A stretch of DNA of 64,000 nt from Pseudaquabacterium terrae (GTDB lineage Bacteria > Pseudomonadota > Gammaproteobacteria > Burkholderiales > Burkholderiaceae_C): the NCBI RefSeq assembly GCF_013266755.1, contig NZ_JABRWJ010000001.1, forward strand, positions 124,001-188,000, given 5' to 3'. The notes beneath the pieces are model-generated. The model searched no databases. It saw only the letters and a list, made by a program, of their open reading frames with translations, and was not told where the DNA came from. Each line of letters starts with the position of its first letter. Position 1 is the first letter of the stretch. This document shows positions 1,502-14,507 of this stretch, piece by piece. The position numbers and the translations under genes are program-made.

Positions 1502-2911
1502 TCACTCCGGCCACTGCACCCGCGCGTCGAGCCCCTGCACCGCCCCGTCGGCGGCGACACGATTGACGAGCTCGATGCGTGCCTGCATCGACTGCGCAAT
1601 CTCCAGGCAGATCGACAGCCCGAGTCCGCTGCCGCCAATGCCGTGCGCGGCCGCAAACGGTTGGAACAGCCACGCGCGCATGTCCTCGCTGATGCCCGGG
1701 CCGCTGTCCCAGACGGTCAGCTCGGCGCCCTGCGCTGCGTCGTGGCGCAATCGGATGCCCAGCGCACCGCCGGCCGGGGTGTGGCGGATCGCATTGCTCA
1801 GCAGGTTGCGCACCAGCTCGCCGGCCATCCAGCCGTTGCCGCGCACGATCACCGCGCTGCCGGTGTCGAGCGAACAGTCGATGTGCTTGGCGGCCAGCAG
1901 CGGCGACATCTCGATCACCGCTTCCTGCGCGATCTGATTCATGTCCAGCGGCTGCGCCTGCTCGGCACTGCGCATCGTTTCCAGCCGCACCTTGTTGAGC
2001 AACTGATTGGCCAGGTGCGTCGTGCGGTCGACGGTGCGCAGCATCTCCGGCAGCACCACCTCCACCGGCGCATCACCGCCCATGGCGGACTGCAATTGCG
2101 TCTTCAATACCGTCATCGGCGTGCGCAATTGGTGCGACGCGTCGGCGATCAATCGCTGCTGCTGCAGCAGCATCTGGCGCTGGCGCAGGAACAGCGCATT
2201 CATCTCGTCGATCACCGGCTCCAGCTCCTCCGGCCCATGCGTCGTCAGCGCGCTGGTGGCTTCCGCGCTGCGCTGCTTCAGCTCGTTGCCCAGCGCGGCC
2301 AGCGGCCGCAGCGCCTGGCGCACCACGGCCCAGATCGTCGCTGCGATCACCAGCATCAGCACCGCCTGGCGGACCAGCATGCTCTGCAGCAAGGTCGCGG
2401 CCGAGGCCTGGCGCGCCTCCAGCGTCTCGCCCACCAGCACCAGCGCCACGCCCTGCCCCTGCGAGGTCTCGATCGGCTGGTACAGCGCCGTCACCTGCAC
2501 CGGCTTGCCGTCGACATCGGCGCGAAAGCTCTGCCGCAGTTCGCGCGGCGCGCTCGCTGCCGTCGCGGGCGGCGGCGGCAGCTCGGCGTCCCCCGCGACA
2601 TGGCGGCCGTCGAAGCCGATCACGCGGTAGAAGACGCGGCTGCCGCCGGCGCCTTCGAGCGCCTCGATCATCGCCAGCGGCACGCTGACGCTCAGCACGT
2701 CGCGCTCGACGCGCAGCAGGTCGCCGATCTGCTGCGCGGTGGCCTGCAGCAGCCGGTCATGTGCGGCGGCGGTGGTGCGCAGCGTGCTGTCGTAGAGGCT
2801 CGCGACGTCGATCGCCATCAGCAGCGCGATCGGCCCCAGCGTGGCCGCCAGCAGGTAACGCTTGAGGTTGGCGGGGCGCTTCACCGCCTCACGCCGCCGC
2901 CTTCGGCGCAT
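1502..2911 (-). CDS. Sensor histidine kinase, TctE/QseC-like, with 2CSK_N-type sensor domain
   Basis: An inner-membrane kinase of up to 469 residues. TM1 lies near residues 18-38, followed by a periplasmic domain of the 2CSK_N kind, TM2 near 183-200, then the dimerisation/phosphoacceptor helix with DASHQLRTPM (His260 numbered from 2911). The ATPase domain has the N box LVRNLLSNAIRHTPAGG and the G box WDSGPGI. It overlaps the upstream response-regulator gene by 23 bases if the ATG at 2911 is used; a GTG at 2884, 5 bases past the regulator stop, is an alternative start, and neither has a strong ribosome-binding site. TctE-type kinases sense carboxylates or similar small anions. Here the partner genes across the divergent promoter encode a PhnD-type transporter, so the signal is probably its ligand (inference). 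Confidence 0.9.
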   Translation of the reverse strand: MRRRRRREAVKRPANLKRYLLAATLGPIALLMAIDVASLYDSTLRTTAAAHDRLLQATAQQIGDLLRVERDVLSVSVPLAMIEALEGAGGSRVFYRVIGFDGRHVAGDAELPPPPATAASAPRELRQSFRADVDGKPVQVTALYQPIETSQGQGVALVLVGETLEARQASAATLLQSMLVRQAVLMLVIAATIWAVVRQALRPLAALGNELKQRSAEATSALTTHGPEELEPVIDEMNALFLRQRQMLLQQQRLIADASHQLRTPMTVLKTQLQSAMGGDAPVEVVLPEMLRTVDRTTHLANQLLNKVRLETMRSAEQAQPLDMNQIAQEAVIEMSPLLAAKHIDCSLDTGSAVIVRGNGWMAGELVRNLLSNAIRHTPAGGALGIRLRHDAAQGAELTVWDSGPGISEDMRAWLFQPFAAAHGIGGSGLGLSICLEIAQSMQARIELVNRVAADGAVQGLDARVQWPE

Positions 2912-3563
2912 CGCACAGCAGGTAGCCGACGCCGCGCAAGGTCATGATCTCGACGCCGGTGCCGGCGAGCTTGCGGCGCAGGCGGTGCACGATGACTTCC
3001 AGCGCATCGGGCTGCACGGTCTCGCCGGCGGCGAAGACCAGCGCGAACAACCGGTCGCGCGTGACACCGTGGCCGGGCCGCGCGATCAGCGCCTTCAAAA
3101 GGGCGCTCTCGCGCGGCGACAGATCCAGCGGCTTGGTCTCGTGCAGGAAGATGCCGGCGCGCTTGTCATAGCGCAGCGCGCCGCAGGCCAGTTCGTCGCT
3201 GCTGCCGCCGCGGCGCACCAGCGCGCGCAGGCGCGCCTCGAGCTCGTCGAGGTCGAAGGGCTTGGCCAGGTAGTCGTCGGCGCCGGCATTCAGCCCGACG
3301 ATGCGGTCACCCACGGCGCCGCGCGCGGTGAGCACCAGCACCGGCGTCCAGTCCTCGTGGTTGCGCAGGCGCTGCAGCACGCGCAGGCCGTCGATGCCGG
3401 GGATCGACAGGTCGAGCAGGATGGCGTCGAAATCGTGGTGCCGCGTCAGGTTCAGCGCCTCGACACCATCGATGCAGACGACCACCTCGAAGCCGCGGCG
3501 AAAGAGCGCGCGCGTCAGCGCGCCGGAGAGGTCGAGGTCGTCCTCGACGAGCAGGATCTTCAT
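2889..3563 (-). CDS. OmpR/PhoB-family response regulator (TctD-like)
   Basis: A 224-residue DNA-binding response regulator. The receiver domain occupies about 1-115, with the acidic pocket VEDD at 7-9, phosphoacceptor Asp51 in LLDLSIPG and conserved Lys101 in LAKPF. A winged-helix domain with LSPRESALLKAL and the terminal VGYLL follows. It is transcribed with, and overlaps, the histidine kinase gene. Divergently, 163 bases away, starts the PhnD-type transporter operon, and the gap carries four hexamers spaced 11 bp. That is the architecture expected for OmpR/PhoB-family dimers, which bind direct repeats one helical turn apart. I infer that this protein is the regulator of that promoter and of the second array near 8121-8159. 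Confidence 0.92.
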   Translation of the reverse strand: MKILLVEDDLDLSGALTRALFRRGFEVVVCIDGVEALNLTRHHDFDAILLDLSIPGIDGLRVLQRLRNHEDWTPVLVLTARGAVGDRIVGLNAGADDYLAKPFDLDELEARLRALVRRGGSSDELACGALRYDKRAGIFLHETKPLDLSPRESALLKALIARPGHGVTRDRLFALVFAAGETVQPDALEVIVHRLRRKLAGTGVEIMTLRGVGYLLCDAPKAAA

Positions 3564-3621: not shown

Positions 3622-3665
3622 CGAAAGGCAGCCGAAAGCCTGTGGCAATGGTCTCGAAAGAACCC
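3622..3665 (+). promoter_or_regulatory. Four 11-bp-phased CGAAAG-like hexamers upstream of the PhnD operon
   Basis: Hexamers begin at 3622 (CGAAAG), 3633 (CGAAAG), 3644 (GGCAAT, degenerate) and 3655 (CGAAAG), each exactly 11 bases apart. A plausible -10 element, TAGAGT, lies at 3691-3696, and the array ends just before the expected -35 position. This is the layout of a class II activator-dependent promoter bound by an OmpR/PhoB-type regulator. The first hexamer is 105 bases before the phnD-like ATG. An array of the same phase and position occurs at 8121-8164. Confidence 0.65.
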
Positions 3666-3726
3666 GCCCCACGGACCGGGCCGCGCTCCCTAGAGTGCAG
3701 CCATCCCGAACCGCAGGAGACAACGC

Positions 3727-4716
3727 ATGATCCGCACCCTCGCCGCCGCCGCGCTCTGCGCTGCAGCCCTCATCGCCCCGGCCCATGCGCAGGATGTCTG
3801 CGCCAACCGCGGCGACCTCGACGCGCAGTACTGCGATCTGAACAAGGACCTGACCGCCGACCCGCCCGCCGAAGCCGCGCGGCTGAAGGTGCCGAACACG
3901 CTGGTCTTCACCTACACGCCGGTCGAGGACCCGGCCGTCTACGAGAAGGCCTTCAAGCCCTTCACCGATCACCTGGCGCAATGCACCGGCAAGCGGGTGC
4001 TGTACTACCAGGTGCAGTCGAATGCGGCCGAGATCGAGGCGATGCGCGCGGGCCGGTTGCACGTCGCCGGCTTCTCGACCGGGCCGACGGCTTTCGCAGT
4101 CAACATCGCCGGCGCGGTGCCCTTCGCCGTCAAGGGTTATGCCGACCGCTACCAGGGCTACCAGCTGCTGCTGATCGTGCGCAAGGACAGCCCGTTCCAG
4201 AAGCCGGCGGACCTGAAGGGCAAGAAGCTCGCGCACACCTCGCCGTCGTCGAACTCGGGGCACATGGCGCCGCTGGCGCTGTTCCCGAAACAGGGGCTGG
4301 TGCCGGAGAAGGACTACCGCATCGTCTTCTCGGGCAAGCACGACCAGTCGGTGATGGGCGTGATGAGCGGCGACTACGACGCCGCTGCGGTGGCCTCCGA
4401 TGTCTTCGAGCGCATGGCGCGCCGCGGCGAGGTGAAGGAAGACGACTTCCGCATCCTCTACCGCAGCGAGAAGTTCCCGACCTCGTCCTTCGCCTATGCG
4501 CACGACCTCGAGCCCAGCTTCCGCGACAAGATGCTGAAGTGCTTCTACGACTACCGCTTCACGCCGGAGATGCAGAAGGCCTTCGACGGCGCCGACCGCT
4601 TCACGCCCATCACCTACCAGAAGGATTTCGCGATCGTGCGCCACGTCGCCGAAGCGGCGGGCGAGAAGTTCAACCGCGCGGCCTATGAACGCGAAGCCGC
4701 CAAGGCCAAGAAGTGA
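3727..4716 (+). CDS. phnD: PhnD-family ABC transporter substrate-binding protein 1
   Basis: A 329-residue periplasmic binding protein with a classic signal peptide (hydrophobic 4-16, cleavage after AHA at about residue 21). It shows the type 2 periplasmic-binding fold features of the PhnD/PtxB/AioX family: [16 protein letters not shown], then [15 protein letters not shown], then the SNSGH loop that caps an oxyanion, then [28 protein letters not shown] ribosome-binding site precedes the ATG. It is the first gene of an operon with an ATPase and two permeases. Family ligands are phosphonate, phosphite, phosphate or arsenite. None of the phosphonate catabolic genes (phnF-P, phnWX) is present, so the ligand is undetermined. 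Confidence 0.85.
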
Positions 4717-4723
4717 GCCAAGC

Positions 4724-5491
4724 ATGCATGCACTCGACATCCGCGGCCTGAGCAAGGCCTACACGCCGGGCAAGCCGGTGCTCAAGGGCATCGACCTGCA
4801 TATACAAGGCGCCGGGCTGACGGCGATCATCGGCCCCTCGGGCACCGGCAAGTCGACGCTCCTGCGTTGCATCAACCGGCTCGTCGACCCGAGCGCGGGC
4901 TCGATCTGCCTGCACTCGCGCGGCGAGCGCATCGAGTTGAGCGCGCTCAGTGGCCGCGCGCTGCGCCACAGCCGTCGCCGCATCGGCATGGTGTTCCAGG
5001 AATACAACCTGGTCGAGCGGCTGACGGTGATGGAGAACCTGCTGACCGGGCGGCTCGGCTACGTCGGCGCGTGGAATGCGTGGCGGCGGCACTTTCCGCA
5101 CGAGGACATTGCGCGTGCGTTCGCGCTGCTGGAGACGGTGGGGCTGGCGGGCTTCGCGAACCAGCGCGCCGATGCGCTCTCGGGCGGCCAGCGCCAGCGC
5201 GTGGGCATTGCACGCGCCTTGATGCAGCAGCCCGACGTGCTGCTGGCCGACGAGCCGACCTCGTCGCTCGACCCGAAGACGTCGGTCGAGATCATGACGC
5301 TGCTGCGCGACTTGGGGCGTGCGCAGCACGTGCCGGTGATCGTCAACATCCACGACGTCGAACTGGCGCGGCGTTTTGCCGACCGCATCGTCGGCATGTC
5401 CGGCGGCGGCATCGTCTACGACGGTGATCCGGCCGGCCTGACCGATGCGCTGCTGCAGACGATCTACGGTGGTGAGTCATGGTTGCAGTGA
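4724..5491 (+). CDS. phnC: PhnC-like ABC transporter ATP-binding protein
   Basis: A cytoplasmic ATPase of about 255 residues that drives import by the adjacent permeases. Walker A is [11 protein letters not shown], the Q loop is [11 protein letters not shown], the ABC signature is [15 protein letters not shown], Walker B with the catalytic Glu is [11 protein letters not shown], and the switch His is in [10 protein letters not shown]. These are typical of the PhnC subfamily. I chose the ATG at 4724, 7 bases after the binding-protein stop; an in-frame ATG at 4685 would start inside the preceding gene. The 3' end overlaps the first permease by 13 bases, which indicates translational coupling. 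Confidence 0.88.
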
Positions 5492-6267
5492 GTGCGCCGT
5501 CGACTCCCTTTCGGGCCAGCGCCGCAAGCCGCGCGGCGCTGCTCGGCGTCGCGCTCTATGCGCTGTATGCGCTGAGCCGGCTCGAGGTCTCGTGGCCGCG
5601 ATTCCTGACCGGCCTCGACCAGGGCGCACGGCTGCTCGGCAAGATGTTCCCGCCCGATCTGCGCAAGGGCGACATCCTGTTCTCGGGCATGGTCGAGAGC
5701 CTGCAGATTGCCGTGCTGGCCTCGCTGCTCGGCATCCTGATCAGCCTGCCGCTGGGCCTGCTGGGCGCGCGCAACCTGATGCCCGCGGGCGTCAGCTGGA
5801 CGGCGCGCGGCGTCGTCGCGCTGTGCCGCTCGCTGCATCCGGTGATCGTCGCGATCCTGTTCGTCAAGGCGGTCGGCTTCGGCGCGCTGGCCGGCGTGCT
5901 GGCGCTCACCGTCGGCTCGATCGGCTTCATCGGCAAGCTCTTCGCAGAGGCGATCGAGGAGATCTCGCCCAAGCAGGTGGAAGCGGTGCGCGCCACCGGC
6001 GCGTCGTTCGCCAACGTCGTGCTGTTCGGCGTGCTGCCGCAGGTGCTGTCGCGCTTCGTCGGCTTCGCCACCTACCAACTCGATTCGAACCTGCGCAATT
6101 CGACGATGGTCGGCATCGTCGGCGCCGGTGGCATCGGCGGCGCGCTGTTCGCGGCCTTCCAGCGTTTCGACTACGGCTTCGTGTTCACGATCCTCGCGAC
6201 CATCGTCGCGCTGATCCTGTGCGCGGAGCTGCTGACCCAACAGGTGAAAAAGGTGTTCCATGTCTGA
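5479..6267 (+). CDS. phnE: PhnE-like ABC transporter permease 1
   Basis: A 262-residue inner-membrane permease with a first TM helix near residues 18-34 and a membrane core containing about five further helices. It carries the permease coupling segment that contacts the ATPase, around [25 protein letters not shown], as in PhnE. The glycine-rich [14 protein letters not shown] motif near the end is also characteristic of PhnE/MetI-like permeases. The start overlaps the ATPase gene and the stop overlaps the second permease by 8 bases. The two permease genes presumably form a heterodimer rather than the PhnE homodimer of E. coli. Confidence 0.88.
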
Positions 6268-7081
6268 AGCGGCCCTGCCGCCACACACGCTGGGCGCGCC
6301 GCAGTGGCAGCGGCACACGCCCGCGCAGCGCTGGCTGCGCTGGACGGTGTGGTTCGTGATCGTGCTCGCCGCGGCGCTGTCGCTGCGCCACATCGAGATC
6401 GTTCCGGAGTTCCTGGCCGATGCGCCGGCGCAGATGGGCGACCTGGTGCAGCGCATGTGGCCGCCCGACTGGCGCCACTACCCGAAAGGCATCCACGATG
6501 CGCTGGTCGAGACGCTGCACATCGCGACGCTCGGCACGCTGCTGTCGCTGCTGCTGGCGGTGCCGTTCGGCCTGATGGTGGCACCGAACCTGACGCGCCA
6601 CCGCGGGCTGAACTTCTTTGCACGGCTGGTGCTGGTGTCCTCGCGCTCGGTCAATTCGCTGGTCTGGGCGTTGCTCTTCGTCGCGGTCTTCGGGCCCGGC
6701 GCGCTGGCCGGTGCGCTGGCGATCGGCTTTCGCTCAATCGGCTTCGTCGGCAAGCTGCTCGGCGAGGCGATCGAGCAATCACCACGCGGGCCGATCGAGG
6801 CGCTGGAAGCCGCCGGCGCCGGCTGGTGCGCGCGCATCGGCTACGGTTATTGGCCGCAATTGAAGCCGGCGTTCTGGTCGATCGTGTTATTGCGCTGGGA
6901 CATCAACGTGCGTGAATCGGCGGTGCTCGGTCTGGTCGGCGCCGGTGGCATCGGCATGGTGCTGGACACCGCGATGAACCTGTTTCAATGGGACCGCGTC
7001 GCCGCGGTGCTGCTGGCGATCTTCACGGTCGTGGTGATGGCCGAGGTGGTGGTGACGCAGGTGCGGCAGCGCGTGCTGTAA
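6260..7081 (+). CDS. phnE: PhnE-like ABC transporter permease 2
   Basis: A 273-residue paralogue of the preceding permease. After a hydrophilic N terminus come a TM helix near 30-48 and a MetI-like core with the coupling segment GKLLGEAIEQSPRGPIEALEAAGAG and the conserved VLGLVGAGGIGMVLDTAM block. It is the last gene of the phnD-phnC-phnE-phnE-like operon; a GC-rich hairpin follows its stop codon. Paired PhnE proteins are known in phosphite-type and phosphonate-type importers, so the duplication does not identify the substrate. Confidence 0.88.
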   Translation: MSEAALPPHTLGAPQWQRHTPAQRWLRWTVWFVIVLAAALSLRHIEIVPEFLADAPAQMGDLVQRMWPPDWRHYPKGIHDALVETLHIATLGTLLSLLLAVPFGLMVAPNLTRHRGLNFFARLVLVSSRSVNSLVWALLFVAVFGPGALAGALAIGFRSIGFVGKLLGEAIEQSPRGPIEALEAAGAGWCARIGYGYWPQLKPAFWSIVLLRWDINVRESAVLGLVGAGGIGMVLDTAMNLFQWDRVAAVLLAIFTVVVMAEVVVTQVRQRVL

Positions 7082-7096
7082 CACGTGCCGCTTGGA

Positions 7097-7133
7097 GCGG
7101 CCGGCGGAGGGAGAGGGTTACTTCGCCGGCCGC
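7097..7133. terminator. GC-rich hairpin between convergent genes
   Basis: Perfect 10-base arms (GCGGCCGGCG at 7097-7106 and its complement at 7124-7133) enclose a 17-base purine-rich loop. The structure spans the gap between the convergent phnE-like stop (7081) and the end of the opposite-strand binding-protein gene (7118), so its right arm lies inside that gene's last codons. No U-tract follows, so function as an intrinsic terminator is an inference from position. Confidence 0.4.
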
Positions 7134-8098
7134 GCCGCACTGTCATAGGCCTTGCGGTCGAAACGTTCGCCGACACCTTCGGCCACCTGGCGCACGATCG
7201 CCCAGTCGCGCTGGTAGCGCACCGGCACGAATCGATCGGCCTGCTGGAATTCACGCCGCATGTCGTCGGCGAAGCGGTAGTCGTAGAAGCATTTCAGCAG
7301 CTTGTCGCGCAATGCGGGCTCGAGGTCGTGCGCATAGGCCACCGCTTCGGTCGGAAACGGCGCGCTCTCATAGAGCACGCGCAATTCGGTGCCGCGCAAT
7401 TGGCCGCGGCGCTGCATGCGCTGCAGCACGTCGGACGCCACGGCGGCGGCGTCGTATTCGCCGCGCACGACGCCGAGGATCGAATGGTCGTGCTTGCCGG
7501 AGTAGACGATGCGGTAGTCGTCGCCGGGCACCAGCCCCTGCGCCGGGAACAGCGCGCGCGGCGCGAGATTGCCGGAATTGGAGGTTGGCGAGGTGTGCGC
7601 GACACGCTGGCCTTTCAAATCGCCCGGCTTCTGGAATGCGCTGTCCTTGCGCACGATCAGCATCAGCTTGTAGCCCTGCGCGCCTTGCGCATCACCCTTC
7701 ACGGCGAACGGCACGGCGCCGGCGATGTTGACGGCAAACGCCGTCGGCCCGGTCGAGAACCAGGCCACCTGCACGCGGCCGCTGCGCATCGCCTCGATCT
7801 GCGCGGCATTGCTCTGCACCGGGAAATAGACGACACGACGGCCGACGCATTGCGACAGGTGCGCGGTCAGCGGGCGCAGCAGGCGCTCGTACAGCGTGGG
7901 CTCCTCGATCGGCGTGTAGGTGAAGGCAATGGTGTGCGGCGCGCGCCAGCGCCGGCGATCGGCGGGCGGATCGGCCACCAGGTCGCGATCGGCATCGCAA
8001 TACGGCGCATCGAGGTCGCCGCGGTGGCGGCATTCGTCAGCGGCGAATGCGCCGGTGATTGCGCCGAGCAGCAGCCCCAACGTGACGAAGTGCCGCAC
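7118..8098 (-). CDS. PhnD-family substrate-binding protein 2
   Basis: A periplasmic binding protein of about 326 residues, closely related to the one at 3727-4716. The mature part begins ADECRHRGDLDAPYCD and shares [30 protein letters not shown], the TSPTSNSGN anion loop and [17 protein letters not shown] chose the GTG at 8098 because it places a hydrophobic signal peptide (VTLGLLLGAITGAFA) at the N terminus; reading further upstream would run through the divergent promoter. It has no ATPase or permease of its own, so it probably shares the transporter encoded at 4724-7081 or acts as a sensor component. The 8099-8222 gap holds a four-hexamer array 23-61 bases upstream of its start. Confidence 0.8.
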   Translation of the reverse strand: MRHFVTLGLLLGAITGAFAADECRHRGDLDAPYCDADRDLVADPPADRRRWRAPHTIAFTYTPIEEPTLYERLLRPLTAHLSQCVGRRVVYFPVQSNAAQIEAMRSGRVQVAWFSTGPTAFAVNIAGAVPFAVKGDAQGAQGYKLMLIVRKDSAFQKPGDLKGQRVAHTSPTSNSGNLAPRALFPAQGLVPGDDYRIVYSGKHDHSILGVVRGEYDAAAVASDVLQRMQRRGQLRGTELRVLYESAPFPTEAVAYAHDLEPALRDKLLKCFYDYRFADDMRREFQQADRFVPVRYQRDWAIVRQVAEGVGERFDRKAYDSAARPAK

Positions 8099-8120
8099 AC
8101 GCGCAAATCCCGAGTGCTTC

Positions 8121-8164
8121 TGAAATGAATCCGAAAGGTCTTCGACAGCCGGCTGCAAGCGCGG
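8121..8164 (+). promoter_or_regulatory. Second four-hexamer, 11-bp-phased array upstream of PhnD-like gene 3
   Basis: Hexamers begin at 8121 (TGAAAT), 8132 (CGAAAG), 8143 (CGACAG) and 8154 (TGCAAG), again exactly 11 bases apart and on the same strand as those at 3622-3665. The first hexamer is 102 bases from the ATG at 8223 (105 in the first array). A TACGCT -10-like element lies 70 bases after the array start (69 in the first array). The shared geometry argues for the same OmpR-family regulator at both promoters. The divergent binding-protein gene starting at 8098 may also be affected. Confidence 0.6.
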
Positions 8165-8222
8165 ACCAGACAGCACGGGCCTGGCTGGCCTACGCTGGGG
8201 CATCGGTGTGCAGGAGCAGGTC

Positions 8223-9143
8223 ATGAGCACAAGTTTCCAGAGGCACGGACTCGGCATTCTGCTGGCCACCCTGTGCGCGTCATCATACGGGCCGACCGCC
8301 GATGCGGCGACCCCGCGCACGCGCCTCGCAGTGGCCTTCCCGAAGACCTACAACCGCGTCGAGACGGCGATGCTCTACGGCGGCTACCTGAAGCGGCTGG
8401 CGCAGTGCGCCAACGTCGAGCTGGTGAACCTGCGCGGCGAGCCGGTGAGCGAGCGCTTCGATGCGCTGGACCTGCTGCCCGAGAGCGAGCTCGTCACCCA
8501 CATGCGCACCGGCCGGCTGCAGCTGGCGCAGTTCTTCACCGGGCTGGTGCCGGCGGCGATCGACGAAGGCCAGGGCGAGGCCTTCGCGGTGCGCGGCGAC
8601 ACCACGAGCGGCCGCTACGGCTCGTACCGGCTGCACCTGATCGTGCGCGCCGACAGCAGCTACCTGCGGCCGCCCGACCTCACCGGCACGCGCATCGCGC
8701 ACTCGTCGGTGCGCTCGAACTCCGGCAACCTGGCGCCGCGCGCGCTGTTCCCGGCCATCGGCCTGGTGCCCGAGCGCGACTATGAGGTGGTCTACTCCGG
8801 CAACCACGAGCGCTCGATCGTCGGCACCTTCTACGGCTTCTGGAAAGGCGCGGCCGTGGCCAGCGACCAGTTCGAACGCATGGTGCGCAAGGGCGAGATC
8901 AAGCCGCAGGACTTTCGCGTGCTGTGGGCCAGCGAGCCCTTTCCGGTCGAGGCGATGGTGATGAGCCGCCAGCTCGCGCCCGACGTGCAGCAGCGCGTGC
9001 GCCAGTGCACCTACGGCTACCGCTTTCCGGCCAAGGCCAGCAGCCTGCTCGACGGCGCCGATGGCTTCGTGCCGATCGATGCCGAACGCGCCTTCGCCGG
9101 CGTGCGCCTGGTGCTCGAGCGCACCAGGGCCTCGACACGGTGA
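8223..9143 (+). CDS. PhnD-family substrate-binding protein 3
   Basis: A 306-residue binding protein with a signal peptide (LGILLATLCASSYGPTADA). It is more divergent than the other two PhnD-like proteins but keeps the same plan: RTGRLQLAQFFTG, the SSVRSNSGN anion-binding loop, LFPAIGLVPERDYEVVYSGNHERS and the CTYGYRFP end. An AGGAG at 8212-8216 selects the ATG at 8223 over the GTG at 8208. The next gene, a methyl-accepting chemotaxis protein, begins only 38 bases downstream in the same direction. That suggests this binding protein delivers its ligand to a chemoreceptor rather than to a permease (inference). Confidence 0.8.
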   Translation: MSTSFQRHGLGILLATLCASSYGPTADAATPRTRLAVAFPKTYNRVETAMLYGGYLKRLAQCANVELVNLRGEPVSERFDALDLLPESELVTHMRTGRLQLAQFFTGLVPAAIDEGQGEAFAVRGDTTSGRYGSYRLHLIVRADSSYLRPPDLTGTRIAHSSVRSNSGNLAPRALFPAIGLVPERDYEVVYSGNHERSIVGTFYGFWKGAAVASDQFERMVRKGEIKPQDFRVLWASEPFPVEAMVMSRQLAPDVQQRVRQCTYGYRFPAKASSLLDGADGFVPIDAERAFAGVRLVLERTRASTR

Positions 9144-9181
9144 TCGCGCGGTGATCACGCGCTGAATCGAGGAGAGCCGCG

Positions 9182-10789
9182 ATGCGACTGCCGTTCCGCC
9201 TGCCCTTCCCACCCTTCCCCCGCTTCACGCTGCTGTTGCGGCTGAGACTCGCGCAGCGCCTGGCGCTCGGCTTCGGCCTCGTGCTGGCGCTGCTCGCAGT
9301 GCTGCTCGGCGTCGCGCTGATGACGATGGACCGCATGGCCGCGCGCACGACGGTCATCGTCGAGGTGCAAAACCAGCGCATCGCCTTGGCCGGCGAGATG
9401 ATCCGCGCGGTCGACGAGGTGTCGATCACGCTGCGCAACCTGGTGCTGATCCCGTGGGTCGACGAGCTGCCGAGCGAGGTCACGCGGATGAAGAAGGCGC
9501 TGTCGCGCTACGACGCCGCGCGGCGCGCCTTCATTGCGCTGGCTGGCAACGAGGCCACCGATGCAACGGTGGCCAAGCACCTGGCCGCACTCGAGCTCGC
9601 CGAGCGCGATGCGCGGCCGATCGGCGAGCAGGTCGCGCAGCTCGCGCTGGCCGACAAGAAAGACGATGCAACGACGCTGGTGACGCTGGAGCTGCGCCAG
9701 GTGCAATCCGCGTGGGTCGCGCAGATCGACGAGCTGCGCGCGCGGGAGGTCGCGCGCAGCACGCAGGCGCAGGCCTTCAGCCAGCGCGCCTACCGCAGCG
9801 CCGCCGGCGGGCTGCTCGGGCTCTCGCTGCTGGCGCTGCTGATCGGCGGCGCCGCGGCGTGGTCGATCTCGCGCAGCGTGACGCGGCCGATCGCGCAAGC
9901 CGTGGCGGTGGCCGAGCGCATCGCCGGCGGCGACCTGTCGGTGCCGATCGTCAGCACGGCACGCGACGAGACCGGCCAGCTGCTCGCCGCGCTGGCGCGC
10001 ATGCAGGCGGCGCTGGCGGCGCTGGTCGGCGAAGTACGCGGCACCACCGACCACGTTGCCGGCGCGAGCCGCGAGATGGCCGGCGGCAGCCGCGACCTGT
10101 CGCAGCGCACCGAGCTCGCCGCGGCACGGCTGCAGCACACCGCGTCGACGACGCAGCAGCTCGCCGGCGCGCTCGGCGCGTCGGCGCGCACCGCGCAGGA
10201 GGCGCACGCGCTGGCCAGCGGCGCCTCGCAAGTGGCGCTGCGCGGCGGCGAGGCGATGCGCAGCGTGATGGGGCGCATGGCGACGATCAGCACCTCGTCG
10301 CGCCGCATCGCCGACATCAGCGGCGTGATCGATGCGATCGCCTTCCAGACGCATCTGCTGGCCTTGAATGCCGCCGTCGAGGCGGCGCGCGCCGGTGACG
10401 CCGGCCGCGGCTTCGCGGTCGTCGCCGGCGAGGTGCGTGAGCTCGCACAGCGCTGCGGCCAGGCGGCGCAGCAGATCAAGGGCCTGACCGAGGACTCGGC
10501 CGGCGAAGTGCGCGCCGGCCTGCAGACCGCCGAGCAGGCGCGCGCGACGATGGATCACATCGTCGCCGCGGTCGAGCGCGTGCTCGCCGGCGTCGGCACG
10601 ATCAGCACGGCGGCGCAGCAGCAGAGCGCCGGCTTGGCCGACGTGAGCCGCGCGGTCAACGAGCTCGATCAGATGACGCAGCAGAACGCGGCGCTGGTCG
10701 AGCAGACGGCGGCCGCGGCGGCGGCGCTGCAGGAGCAGGCGGACCGGCTGGGGGATCGGGTGGCGGTGTTTCGAACCAACGCGCCATGA
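9182..10789 (+). CDS. Methyl-accepting chemotaxis protein
   Basis: A 535-residue chemoreceptor. TM1 is near residues 27-47, a periplasmic four-helix-bundle-like sensor domain runs to about 200, and TM2 is near 205-226. A HAMP domain starting at [12 protein letters not shown] follows, then a long coiled signalling domain whose hairpin tip reads [21 protein letters not shown] followed by [17 protein letters not shown], where CheA and CheW dock. No C-terminal pentapeptide tether for CheR is visible. A GAGGAGAGCC ribosome-binding site precedes the ATG. Its coupling to a PhnD-type binding protein suggests indirect ligand sensing through that protein. The 3' end overlaps the convergent GGDEF/EAL gene by 134 bases. 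Confidence 0.93.
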
Positions 10790-13478
10790 CGCCGGCCGAA
10801 TGCTCACCGACGAGCAGCCGCACGCAATCGTCCGCCGTCATCGGCTTGGCGAAGTAGAAGCCCTGCACTTCGTCGCACTGGTGCGCGCGCAGGAAGTCGA
10901 GCTGCTCGCGCGTCTCGACGCCTTCGGCCACGACCTTCAGCTTCAGCCGGTGCGCGAGCTCGATGATGGCGACGGTGATCGCCGCGTCGTCGGCATCGAC
11001 GGTGACGTCGCGCACGAAGGTGCGGTCGATCTTCAGCGTGTCGAGCGCGAAGCGCTTCAGGTGGCTCAGGCTCGAGTAGCCGGTGCCGAAATCGTCGACC
11101 GACAGGCGCACGCCGAAAGAGCGCAGGTTGCGCAGCGTGCGCGCAGCCGCCTCGGGGTCGCTCATCAGCATCGATTCGGTCAGCTCGAGCTCGATCAGGC
11201 CGGCGTCGATGCCGCTCGCGCGCACCAGCGCGCCGATCGTCGCGTCGAGCTCGCGCTGCTGGAACTGCCGCGCCGACAGGTTGATCGCCACCGGCCGCAC
11301 CGCCATGCCCGCGGCCTGCCAGGCGGCCAGCTGCTCGCAGACCGTGCGCACGACCCATTCGCCGACCGGGATGATCAGGCCCGTCTCTTCGAGGCTCGGA
11401 ATGAAGCGCAGCGGCGGCACCAGGCCGCGCACCGGATGCTGCCAGCGCAGCAGCGCCTCGAAGCCGGCGAGCGCGCCGGTGGCCAGGCAGATCTTCGGCT
11501 GGTACTGCAGAACAAACTCACGCCGCTCCAGCGCGCCGCGCAATTCGGTCTGCAATTGCAGGCGTTCCGGCGCCTGCTCGTTCATCGCCGGCAGGTAGCC
11601 CTGGCTCGCGTTGCGGCCCTGCTCCTTGGCGCGGTACATCGCCGTGTCGGCATTGCGCAGCAGCAGGTCGGCCTCGTCGCCATCACGCGGATAGAGCGCG
11701 ATGCCGATGCTGGCCGACACGTGCACCGCCTGGCCGTCGAGCACGAAGGGGCGCGACAGCGCGGCGATGATCTTCTGCGCAACGTGCGCGGCATCGTCGG
11801 CATGCGTGAGCTGCGACAGCACGGCGGCGAATTCGTCGCCGCCGAGCCGGGCCACGGTGTCGCTTGCGCGCACGCACTCCTTCAGGCGCTGCGCGGCCTG
11901 GATCAGCAGCTCGTCGCCGGCCTTGTGGCCCAACGTGTCGTTGACCATCTTGAAGCGGTCGAGGTCGATGAACAGCACGGCGCCGATCCAGCCATGGCGC
12001 TGCGCCTGCGCCAGCGCCTGGCCGAGGCGGTCCATCAGCAGCGAGCGGTTCGGCAGGCCGGTCAGCGGATCGAACTGCGCCAGCCAGGTCAGCCGCACCT
12101 CGGTGCGGTGGCGGTCCATCGCGGTGGCCAGCGCATTGGCCAGGCTTTGCAGGAAGGCGTGACTCTCGCGCGGGAACTCGCGCTGTGAATCCGCGAGCGC
12201 GGCGAGCACGCCGTAGTCGCCGTCACGGCCACTGATCGGCGCCTCGATCGCGCTGCTGGCGCCCTGCAGCTGCGGCAATTCGCCCTCCGATACCGGCGCG
12301 AGGGCGCCGTCCGACACCGGCGCGAAGGCGCCCTCCGACGCCTGCGGGCGCAGCAGCACGTCGCAGCGGTCCACGCCGAGCCCGGCGGCCGCGGCCTTGC
12401 TGGCCTGCTCGAGCAGCGCCTCGAGCCCGACGTTGGCCAGCGCCTGCTGGCCGAACGCGGCGATCAGCCCCTGCTGCAGCGCCTGGCGCTCGAAGCGCGC
12501 CTCGCTCTCGCGCAGGCTGTCCTCGCGCTGCTTGCGCTGCAGGAACAGGCCGATCTGGCCGCCGATCACGCTGAAGGCCTCGAGCAGCCGCGGCTCGGGC
12601 TCGCGCACGACGCGGCTGACGAAGGACATCACGCCGATGCCCCGCCCCTGCGAGATCACCGGGAACATCGACGCGCCGTGCAGGTTCAGCCCCGGCCCGA
12701 GCTGCGCCTGCAGCACATGCTTGCGCTGCGTCAGGTCGGCCACCCACAGCGGCTGCCCCGTGGCCCAGGCGCGGCCGACCATGCCGGCGCCGGCGGCGAA
12801 CACCGCCCCTTCGCTGGACTGCATGTGCGGCCCGAGCAGGCTGCCCGGCACGCACCACGACGCCGCGAAGCGCAGCACGCCGGCCGCGTCATCGGCGCGC
12901 CAGTAGCGGCCGTACTCCCAGCCCTCGGTCTCGCAGATCGCCTGGATCACGGTCTTCAGCGCCACGCCGACATCGTCGGCATCGGCCAGGCAGCGCGCCA
13001 CCGCATGCTCCAGGCGCAGCAGGCTCTCCTCGCGCGTGCGCTCGGTGATGTCGCGGGCGATGCCGCGGTAGCCGCGGAAACGGCCCTGCTCGTCGACGAT
13101 CGGGCGGCCGCTGATGCTGACGACGTGCAGCCCGCCGCCGTCGTCACGGCGCTGGTAGCGCAGGTCGTGGAACGGCAGCCGCGCCGCCTGCGCCGCACGC
13201 TGGGCGAAGCGGACCTCGTCGCTCATCGTCGCCCCGGGCAGCTGCCACGGCGCCAGGCCGGCGTGCCGCCCGTCGTGCCAGACCGGGGCCGCCGATTCGG
13301 CACCGGTGCAGGCGATGAAACGCAGCGCCGCGTCCTGCTCCCAGTACCAGTCGCAGGCCATCGCCGTCAGGTCGCGGAACCGCGCCTCGCTGTCGCGCAG
13401 CGAGTGCAGGACCCCGTGCAGCGGCGCGGCGTCCGGGTCAGGCGGCGGGGGGCCCTGGGCGGGCAGGCACGAGCTCAT
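10656..13478 (-). CDS. PAS/GAF/GGDEF/EAL c-di-GMP signalling protein
   Basis: A soluble signalling protein of about 940 residues. A PAS domain (about 25-150, ending in the PAC-like [14 protein letters not shown]) is followed by a GAF domain (about 165-310), a second GAF-like region (about 345-460), GGDEF (about 470-635; catalytic GGDEF intact near residue 546) and EAL (about 650-890; EALLRW motif near 671, [10 protein letters not shown] loop present). Both catalytic signatures look complete, so it may synthesise and degrade c-di-GMP. I chose the ATG at 13478; a TTG at 13490 sits too close to the AAGGAG at 13493-13498. The proline-rich C-terminal tail is encoded antisense to the end of the chemoreceptor gene. 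The upstream tctC-like gene ends 24 bases before the start, so the two may be co-transcribed. Confidence 0.92.
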
Positions 13479-13502: not shown

Positions 13503-14507
13503 CTATTCGACGCTGATGCGGCGCTCCTTGATGATGCGGGCCCAACGAGCGCGGTCTCTGGCGACAAATTCGGCAAAATCTGCAGCTGTGTGGGCCCGCA
13601 CCGGCTCGGCGCCGAAGCCGGCCAGCCGTTCGCGGACCTCGTTCATCCGCAGCACCGCGCCGAGCTCGGCGTTGAGCCGGCTGACCAGCGCCGGGGGTAG
13701 GCCCTTCGGGCCGTAGAGGCCGAACCAGGTCGTCGCCTCGTAACCCGGCAGCCCCGATTCGGCGACGGTGCGCACGCCCGGCACCAGCGCGCTGGGCGCT
13801 GCGCTGGTGATGGCCAGCGCCTTCAGCTTGCCGTCGCGCACATGGGGCAGGCCCGACACCACACTCTCGAACACCATGTGCACCTGCCCGGCCAGCAGGT
13901 CGTTGATCGCGAACGACGTACCGCGGTACGGGATGTGCGTGACGAAGACGCCGGCCTGCGCCTTGAAGGCCTCGGTCATCAGGTGGACGATGGTGCCGTT
14001 GCCGCTCGAACCGTAGTTCAGCTGGCCCGGCCGCGCTTTCGCGTAGGCGATCAGCTCGCCCATCGAGCTCACCGGCAGCGTCGACGGCACCAGCACCAGG
14101 CTCGGTGCCTGGGCGAGTTGCAGGATCGGCGTGAAGTCGGTGTCGGCGCGGTACGGCAGCTTCGGGTTCAGCTCGGGTCCGATGGCGTGCGTGCTGCTGG
14201 TGGCCAGCAGCAGCGTGTAGCCGTCGGGCGCCGCGCGCGCCACCTCGGCCGAGCCGATCGACCCGCCCGCGCCGGCCCGGTTGTCGACCAGCACGGTCTG
14301 GCCGAGCCGCTGCGACAGCTTGTCGACCGTGGCGCGCGCGATCAGGTCGGTGGCACCCCCGGCAGGAAACGGCACGATCAGCCGGATCGGTCGGTTCGGA
14401 TAGTCGGCCTGCGCCCGCGCCGGTGCGGCGCACGCTGCCAGCGCCGCCATGCCGAGCAGCAGGCGGCCGGCGGCGCGGCGGCCGCCCGTCTTGATCGTTA
14501 TCGGCAC
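13503..14507 (-). CDS. Bug/TctC-family tripartite tricarboxylate-type solute-binding protein
   Basis: A 334-residue periplasmic binding protein. The signal peptide ends near residue 33 (PARAQA), and the mature start DYPNRPIRLIVPFPAGGATD is the hallmark of the Bug family that is greatly expanded in Burkholderiales. The GTG at 14507 follows a strong GGAGGAGG sequence by 6 bases, which decides the start. The permease genes tctA and tctB are absent, as is usual for orphan Bug proteins. Its position at the end of a meta-cleavage cluster suggests it binds an aromatic acid or ring-cleavage dicarboxylate (inference). It lies 105 bases downstream of the ketopantoate-reductase-like gene. Confidence 0.9.
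   Translation of the reverse strand: MPITIKTGGRRAAGRLLLGMAALAACAAPARAQADYPNRPIRLIVPFPAGGATDLIARATVDKLSQRLGQTVLVDNRAGAGGSIGSAEVARAAPDGYTLLLATSSTHAIGPELNPKLPYRADTDFTPILQLAQAPSLVLVPSTLPVSSMGELIAYAKARPGQLNYGSSGNGTIVHLMTEAFKAQAGVFVTHIPYRGTSFAINDLLAGQVHMVFESVVSGLPHVRDGKLKALAITSAAPSALVPGVRTVAESGLPGYEATTWFGLYGPKGLPPALVSRLNAELGAVLRMNEVRERLAGFGAEPVRAHTAADFAEFVARDRARWARIIKERRISVE

Follow-up and report, generated by a model that had tools for sequence, protein, structure and literature searches.

Two intergenic regions in a stretch of the Pseudaquabacterium terrae genome carry repeated hexamers in front of genes for PhnD-type substrate-binding proteins, and the locus raises the question which regulator reads these repeats and which genes it would control. 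The stretch, called the window throughout, comprises 64,000 nt (NCBI RefSeq assembly GCF_013266755.1, contig NZ_JABRWJ010000001.1, positions 124,001 to 188,000), and coordinates are those of the window unless another locus, designated by an L number, is named. An original prediction, made from the letters of the window, had proposed that the repeats are operators of a divergently encoded OmpR/PhoB-family regulator, with a dedicated regulon of all three binding proteins, the transporter and a chemoreceptor. The present analysis makes it likely that the arrays are paired dimer sites of this TctD-like regulator, which would activate a GpxB-like importer as well as the binding protein PhnD3 and the chemoreceptor, and would lower the expression of the binding protein PhnD2.

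Two phased arrays and their conservation

Array 1 (3622..3660, plus strand) consists of the hexamers CGAAAG, CGAAAG, GGCAAT and CGAAAG, which start at positions 3622, 3633, 3644 and 3655. Array 2 (8121..8159, plus strand) consists of TGAAAT, CGAAAG, CGACAG and TGCAAG, starting at 8121, 8132, 8143 and 8154. Reading of the sequence thus bore out the predicted hexamers, their strand and their identical 11-bp phasing, and likewise the predicted -10-like hexamers, namely TAGAGT (3691..3696, plus strand) 69 bp after the start of array 1 and TACGCT (8191..8196, plus strand) 70 bp after the start of array 2, followed by ATG codons at 3727 and 8223. The consensus YGMAAK, which had been given for the unit, had to be abandoned. 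It does not fit GGCAAT and CGACAG of the arrays themselves, and a genome scan with three YGMAAK-N5 units matched one other place and neither array; [T/C/g]G[A/c][A/c]AG describes the unit better. Both strands of the 64 kb were scored with a hexamer matrix built from other genomes, from which the hexamers of the window had been excluded. Array 2 (33.0 bits) and array 1 (31.1 bits) ranked first and second, the next non-overlapping place reached 10.0 bits, and the best places of 60 simulated windows (first-order Markov) had a median of 8.7 and a maximum of 13.7 bits. With other phases (8, 9, 10, 12, 13 and 14) at most 17.5 bits were reached. The two four-hexamer, 11-bp-phased arrays are genuine.

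The gene next to array 1 (2889..3563, minus strand) encodes, as predicted, an OmpR/PhoB-family response regulator, with Response_reg (PF00072) and Trans_reg_C (PF00486) domains that both score above the cut-offs. Its best NCBIfam model is the equivalog TctD (NF012023), and because the score of 230 bits is below the cut-off of 337, the protein, which is the proposed binder of both arrays, is called TctD-like here. The neighboring gene (1502..2911, minus strand) encodes a TctE-like sensor histidine kinase with a periplasmic 2CSK_N domain, HisKA and HATPase_c.

The conservation of array 1 was analyzed in the best 80 of 562 close PhnD1 loci of the named genome collection and in 8 loci from further relatives, so that 89 loci, the window among them, were compared (the DNA of L035 is identical to that of L111). 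A divergent TctD-like regulator gene with its kinase gene adjoins PhnD1 in 11 of the 89 loci, i.e., in the window, L036, L040 (Xenophilus), L041 (a Rhodoferax metagenome-assembled genome), L063 (Janthinobacterium), L077, L080, L081, L083 and L084 (all Herbaspirillum) and L113 (Accumulibacter). A four-hexamer intergenic array is present in all 11, ten times with 11-11-11 and once (L077) with 11-10-11 spacing. Later, 399 family genomes, the own genome included, were searched for the closest regulators without the array as a criterion, which added three loci of the same type (L223, L227 and L229), all with four units, of which the third is TGAAGG. Taken together, in 14/14 loci that were found independently of it the array separates the gene of the TctD-like regulator from that of the binding protein, 13 times with strict phasing; five of the 14 are the Herbaspirillum loci, which are near relatives of one another. 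Three further loci (L203-L205) had been located through the array itself and are excluded from this count. A lack of conservation of the 11-bp spacing in orthologous intergenic regions had been named as the observation that would contradict the original prediction, and the opposite was found. The arrays have sequence properties of an OmpR/PhoB-type operator, namely direct repeats about 11 bp apart that are kept in orthologous promoters.

The remaining 78 loci (77 distinct) have no regulator gene, and 72 of them include at least 1200 bases upstream, enough to reveal one. Only one of the 78 (L104) has a site of more than 20 bits. This site (6371-6409 of L104, 29.6 bits; CGAAAG, CGAAAG, CGTAAG and TGATAG) is located on the minus strand, 53 bp upstream of the ATG of PhnD1, its units point away from PhnD1, and it was taken as a chance match or another operator. 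The next best site at a locus without regulator gene (L044, 18.7 bits) lies inside the first permease gene.

The genome was scanned with a profile, R1, in which the two arrays of the window and eight arrays from relatives had been combined; the R1 scores of these ten are therefore not independent. Among the 150 of 4466 first-look candidates that were scored, only two clear sites were found in the 8.04-Mb genome, array 1 with 26.9 and array 2 with 25.6 bits, and the next candidate reached 13.1 bits. This supports a small dedicated regulon with two sites. In ten relatives R1 found the transporter site, and two of them have one more clear site, which is located upstream of a porin gene in Janthinobacterium (L157, with TAGACT at 90 bp) and upstream of a glpD homolog in Accumulibacter (L158, with CATACT at 69 bp). 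The L157 porin is 46-47% identical to porins encoded divergently from sister regulators in L225 and L230 (see below). R1 arrays were found in at least 6 of 399 family genomes and at least 4 of 399 order genomes, with the window's genome counted in both; the numbers are lower bounds under stricter filters, which among the family genomes missed the three loci with TGAAGG as third unit. A Janthinobacterium site (L145/L159, 17.6 bits) in apparent coding sequence before a cytochrome-like gene was dropped as chance-like.

Four-unit repeats were also observed elsewhere. L202, from the same genus (genome G013), contains five YGAAAG-type hexamers in 11-bp steps (5541-5590; 37.5 bits for four), 166 bp upstream of a gene that by eye resembles urease gamma. 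This may be a simple 11-bp tandem repeat, and the nearest regulator-like matches, about 4 kb away, are receiver domains with 33-36% identity. In another family of the order, L219 (6291-6330) and L220 (6971-7010) have four-unit arrays near genes that are tctB-like by eye and TctDE-like genes, and the array of L221 (7341-7380) directly precedes a TctDE-like gene pair and is divergent from a gene for a 655-aa membrane-protein-like product. Some arrays speak against the proposed operator function: those of L219-L221 are devoid of the -10 geometry of the window, the units in L219 and L220 point away from tctB, and the 11-10-11 array of L077 reaches only 3.8 bits with the strict matrix.

The transporter operon, its probable ligand and the second array

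Array 1 precedes an operon on the plus strand, which encodes the substrate-binding protein PhnD1 (3727..4716), a PhnC-type ATPase (4724..5491; NCBIfam ABC_phnC, 304 bits, cut-off 266) and two PhnE-type permeases (5479..6267 and 6260..7081; NCBIfam PhnE, 266 and 284 bits, cut-off 217). The phosphonate-type reading implied by the PhnD designation was not supported. The PhnD equivalog model TIGR03431 (cut-off 261) yields 159 bits for PhnD1, 153 for PhnD2 and 77 for PhnD3, and the PhnT subfamily model TIGR01098 (cut-off 112) is passed by PhnD1 (211 bits) and PhnD2 (197 bits) and missed by PhnD3 (96 bits). By sequence, the nearest solved structure of PhnD1 is GpxB (9lf9), with 254.6 bits over an alignment of about 300 residues, and in a profile search GpxB outscored PtxB and PhnD by a wide margin. 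For GpxB, binding of glycerol-1-phosphate (G1P) and glycerol-3-phosphate (G3P) at about 1-2.5 uM has been published together with a list of nine ligand residues (PMC12718374). Eight of these nine residues are identical in PhnD1 (T111, G112, Y138, S168, N169, S170, H199 and R223), and the ninth, T247, is conservatively replaced by serine, as in 86 of 108 aligned sequences.

The gene neighborhoods point in the same direction. A glpD homolog directly follows the second permease gene in 6 of the first 11 regulator-linked loci (L041, L077, L080, L081, L083 and L084), the first recognised gene after the array in L041 encodes a glycerophosphodiester phosphodiesterase (Pfam), and L113 has a glycerophosphodiesterase gene downstream on the other strand, so that 7/11 of these loci have genes of one or the other kind; the extra array of L158 also stands before a glpD homolog. 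Because GpxB is the nearest structure, eight of nine pocket residues agree and glp genes are neighbors in relatives, the operon was read as that of a glycerol-phosphate importer, and glycerol phosphate (G3P/G1P) is the ligand suggested for PhnD1.

Several observations do not fit this assignment. Glutamate replaces T247 in PhnD2 and PhnD3. Among loci that retain regulator and array, the pocket deviates in L036 (P G M S N S H H D) and in the two L113 copies (T G F S T S H Q N and T G V S N S H H D); the Herbaspirillum proteins have proline at T111 and glutamine at T247, and L063 has glutamine at T247. The glpD model (cut-off 360) was run on the homologs of L077, L041 and L158; L077 passes, and L041 (308.6 bits) and L158 (339.2 bits) are below the cut-off, though glpD is their best model. 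The glpD gene of the window's own genome is located elsewhere (G000:C53), where R1 sees no array. The altered pockets, together with PhnC and PhnE models that exceed their cut-offs, would suit a transporter for phosphonate or another phosphorus compound, for which the glp genes of the relatives would be incidental. This alternative is unlikely, as PhnD1 misses the PhnD equivalog cut-off by 100 bits and has GpxB as its closest structure, and glpD or glycerophosphodiesterase genes are present at 7 of the first 11 regulator-linked loci. Two side observations concern the operons of relatives: several (L052, L055, L062, L066, L089, L098 and others) have two or three binding-protein genes in a row, and L033 has a 30% glpD-like match (10004-11059), possibly another flavin oxidoreductase, near a PhnD1 ortholog without regulator.

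Array 2 lies between two divergent genes. The second binding protein, PhnD2 (7118..8098, minus strand), is 62-64% identical to PhnD1, and its start was taken as the GTG at 8098, which is preceded by GGGA; array 2 starts 23 bp from this codon and covers the likely PhnD2 promoter region. Between 8230 and 8099 the minus strand contains no TANNNT. The weak -10 nearest to PhnD2, TTCATT (8129-8124), overlaps the first hexamer of array 2 and the adjoining spacer, and two more weak minus-strand hexamers, with starts at 8197 and 8173, are placed past the far end of the array region or within it. A regulator bound to array 2 would thus cover PhnD2 transcription or stand in its path. On the other side the third binding protein, PhnD3 (8223..9143, plus strand; Pfam Phosphonate-bd), is followed after 38 bp by a chemoreceptor gene (9182..10789, plus strand; Pfam 4HB_MCP, HAMP and MCPsignal). 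Array 2 should therefore probably serve PhnD3 and the chemoreceptor and hinder PhnD2. The predicted dedicated regulon is supported as to its small size, with two clear sites seen by R1 in the genome. It is not supported as to all three binding proteins, because array 2 overlies the likely PhnD2 promoter region, and the chemoreceptor would be included as operon partner of PhnD3.

PhnD3 homologs with 46-49% identity exist in 7 other genomes of the 399 searched. In L209, from another genus, a chemoreceptor gene, a PhnD3 homolog gene and a TctD/TctE-like gene pair are close together (4056-11227) without a YGAAAG array; the PhnD3 homolog beside a chemoreceptor supports the link between the two. The window contains one more gene for what we take to be a Bug/TctC-like binding protein (13503-14507), which is not near the arrays.

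The adjacent regulator and the promoter architecture

In a tree of 26 regulators, 14 regulators from transporter loci (the first 11 and L203-L205) and two paralogs from the window's genome (L163 and L164) form one clade (100/100). The group requires 3 changes on the tree, the two paralogs falling inside it. Among the eight closest further regulators, five do not adjoin this transporter (L224, L225, L226, L228 and L230), and all five have an upstream two-hexamer site rather than a four-hexamer array, with 17.9-21.0 bits in comparison to 13.0 bits at the 99% level of random 400-bp stretches. L225 and L230, where porin genes are divergent from the sister regulator, have a weaker second two-hexamer site in the opposite direction. 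The simplest account would be that regulators of this subfamily recognize YGAAAG-N5-YGAAAG as dimers, two such sites being arranged in tandem in the promoters of the window. Each array would most likely represent two tandem dimer sites of the adjacent regulator.

It could be argued that the arrays are read mainly by one or more other TctD-like regulators, namely the paralogs at G000:C55 or G000:C45, and that no dedicated regulon exists. L163 and L164 belong to the same clade, the helix of their DNA-binding domains that we take to be DNA-reading is similar to that of the adjacent regulator, and L163/L230 owns two-hexamer sites with the YGAAAG-type unit. However, the array tracks the adjacent regulator gene at every locus found without its help and is nearly absent from the loci without that gene, the paralog at C55 has two-unit sites and not four, and the 320 bases that precede the paralog at C45 (L164) revealed no YGAAAG-type site. 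This explanation is quite improbable, and the adjacent regulator is the preferred candidate.

The distance between the array start and the -10-like hexamer was compared in 20 array-promoter pairs. The -10 boxes were chosen by a simple rule (TANNNT after the array) and are not mapped start sites; each of 11 loci has one TANNNT 55-110 bp after the array start, and for L158 the looser CATACT was accepted. The distance is 68-70 bp in 12 pairs, 80 bp in one and 90-91 bp in seven, and the classes differ by about one and two helical turns. The distance of 69 bp seen at array 1 recurs in L036, L040, L041, L203-L205, L227 and L229. With the data collapsed to six lineages, the distances cluster on a 10.5-bp period with P = 4.5e-5 versus uniform placement, in a test that predates L223 (68 bp), L227 and L229, and the same phase test on the three distance classes alone yields P = 0.003. 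In 12 promoters the best -35 match to TTGACA, 15-19 bp before the -10, has 2-4 of 6 letters. Distances that shift by whole turns and the lack of a good -35 are the pattern to be expected of an activator that has to face RNA polymerase.

The opposite sign, repression at the arrays, would resemble TctD of Pseudomonas aeruginosa, which counteracts PhoB at quadripartite sites according to the available part of the publication (PMC4513871). Such repression is likewise quite improbable here. The -10 is left uncovered by the arrays, which end 30-52 bp upstream of it, the whole-turn variation across lineages is as expected of an activator, and a PhoB box better than chance is not apparent beside either array: no TGTCAT-N5-TGTCAT was found near either array at up to 3 mismatches, so that these are not Pho regulon promoters by this measure, and the best PhoB boxes beside the arrays have 4 and 5 mismatches of 12, the same as random pieces. 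Activation by the adjacent regulator is preferred. Lastly, the imperfect units within each array (GGCAAT, TGAAAT) might suggest a chance pattern chosen by eye, which was rejected as next to impossible in view of the ranks under a matrix that excludes the window and the conservation at all regulator-linked loci.

Proposed mechanism and comparison with known systems

The following mechanism is proposed. Each array would be a pair of tandem, head-to-tail dimer sites. Upon activation of the TctE-like kinase the phosphorylated regulator would occupy the two dimer sites, downstream of which lies a promoter that lacks a good -35, and would recruit RNA polymerase, the whole-turn spacing to the -10 keeping both on the same face of the DNA. 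At array 1 this would drive the GpxB-like ATP-binding cassette (ABC) importer for glycerol phosphate, and at array 2 PhnD3 and the chemoreceptor, where the bound regulator would cover or block, and so probably lower, PhnD2. By analogy with the BctC-BctE system described below, the kinase may receive its signal from one of the binding proteins. It is tempting to speculate that one regulator toggles the module between binding proteins, so that the dimers that activate PhnD3 and the chemoreceptor at array 2 also repress PhnD2, array 1 activates the importer, the three paralogs divide transport, kinase sensing and chemotaxis among themselves, and the half-site number (two for sister regulators versus four here) determines which promoters with a shared hexamer code come under each regulator of the subfamily. 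This extended proposal is tentative and on the whole rather doubtful.

Glycerol phosphate is a building block of membrane lipids. If the proposed mechanism is true, several beta-proteobacteria control relatives of GpxB by a two-component system of the TctDE-like type, which acts at a readable operator of four units, and the regulon is predictable from sequence. Importers of the GpxB type for glycerol-1- and glycerol-3-phosphate were described in 2025 (PMC12718374, accessible sections), and the arrays would represent a likely and testable control switch for them. It is also suggested that glycerol phosphates may be the cargo of a group of transporters annotated for phosphonate import, and the natural promoters offer a case for studying the number of half-sites and whole-turn spacing.

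The kind of element is known, i.e., a direct-repeat operator of an OmpR/PhoB-family regulator. Among the records listed in searches of the open-access PMC literature, no operator was found that had been published for a PhnT/GpxB transporter under a TctD-like regulator, and no four-unit form on a GpxB-like importer with a chemotaxis branch. The pho boxes of PhoB and the operators of other family members are similarly direct repeats about one helical turn apart, located upstream of the -10; the unit is TGTCAT there and YGAAAG here.

The GpxB transporter shares with the operon of the window a PhnT-family binding protein and, in PhnD1, eight of the nine ligand residues, T247 being exchanged for serine. 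The window differs by its divergently encoded two-component system and by two additional binding proteins, of which one is encoded beside a chemoreceptor; the GpxB publication leaves the regulation of GpxB to further work (PMC12718374).

The TctD/TctE systems of P. aeruginosa and other species likewise combine genes for an OmpR/PhoB-family regulator and a kinase with a small regulon that includes a binding-protein-dependent transporter, and the window-type arrays of L219 and L220 near tctB-like and TctDE-like genes add to this likeness. The regulator of the window scores below the equivalog cut-off, and a PhnT-type ABC importer is its proposed target. In P. aeruginosa the motif of TctD extends the PhoB box by 22 nt to a 'quadripartite' site with two PhoB and two TctD half-sites (PMC4513871, available part), in contrast to four half-sites of one kind here.

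The PhnD-type proteins and their kinase can also be set beside the BctC-BctE system of Bordetella pertussis, the kinase of which, BctE, is presumably of the TctE type like the kinase encoded in the window. In that system, as presented in the accessible text, a TctC-type binding protein, which belongs to a tripartite transporter, informs the kinase, and the kinase raises the expression of the transporter (PMC9602780), so that the analogy suggests a comparable interaction between a PhnD-type protein and the TctE-like kinase here.

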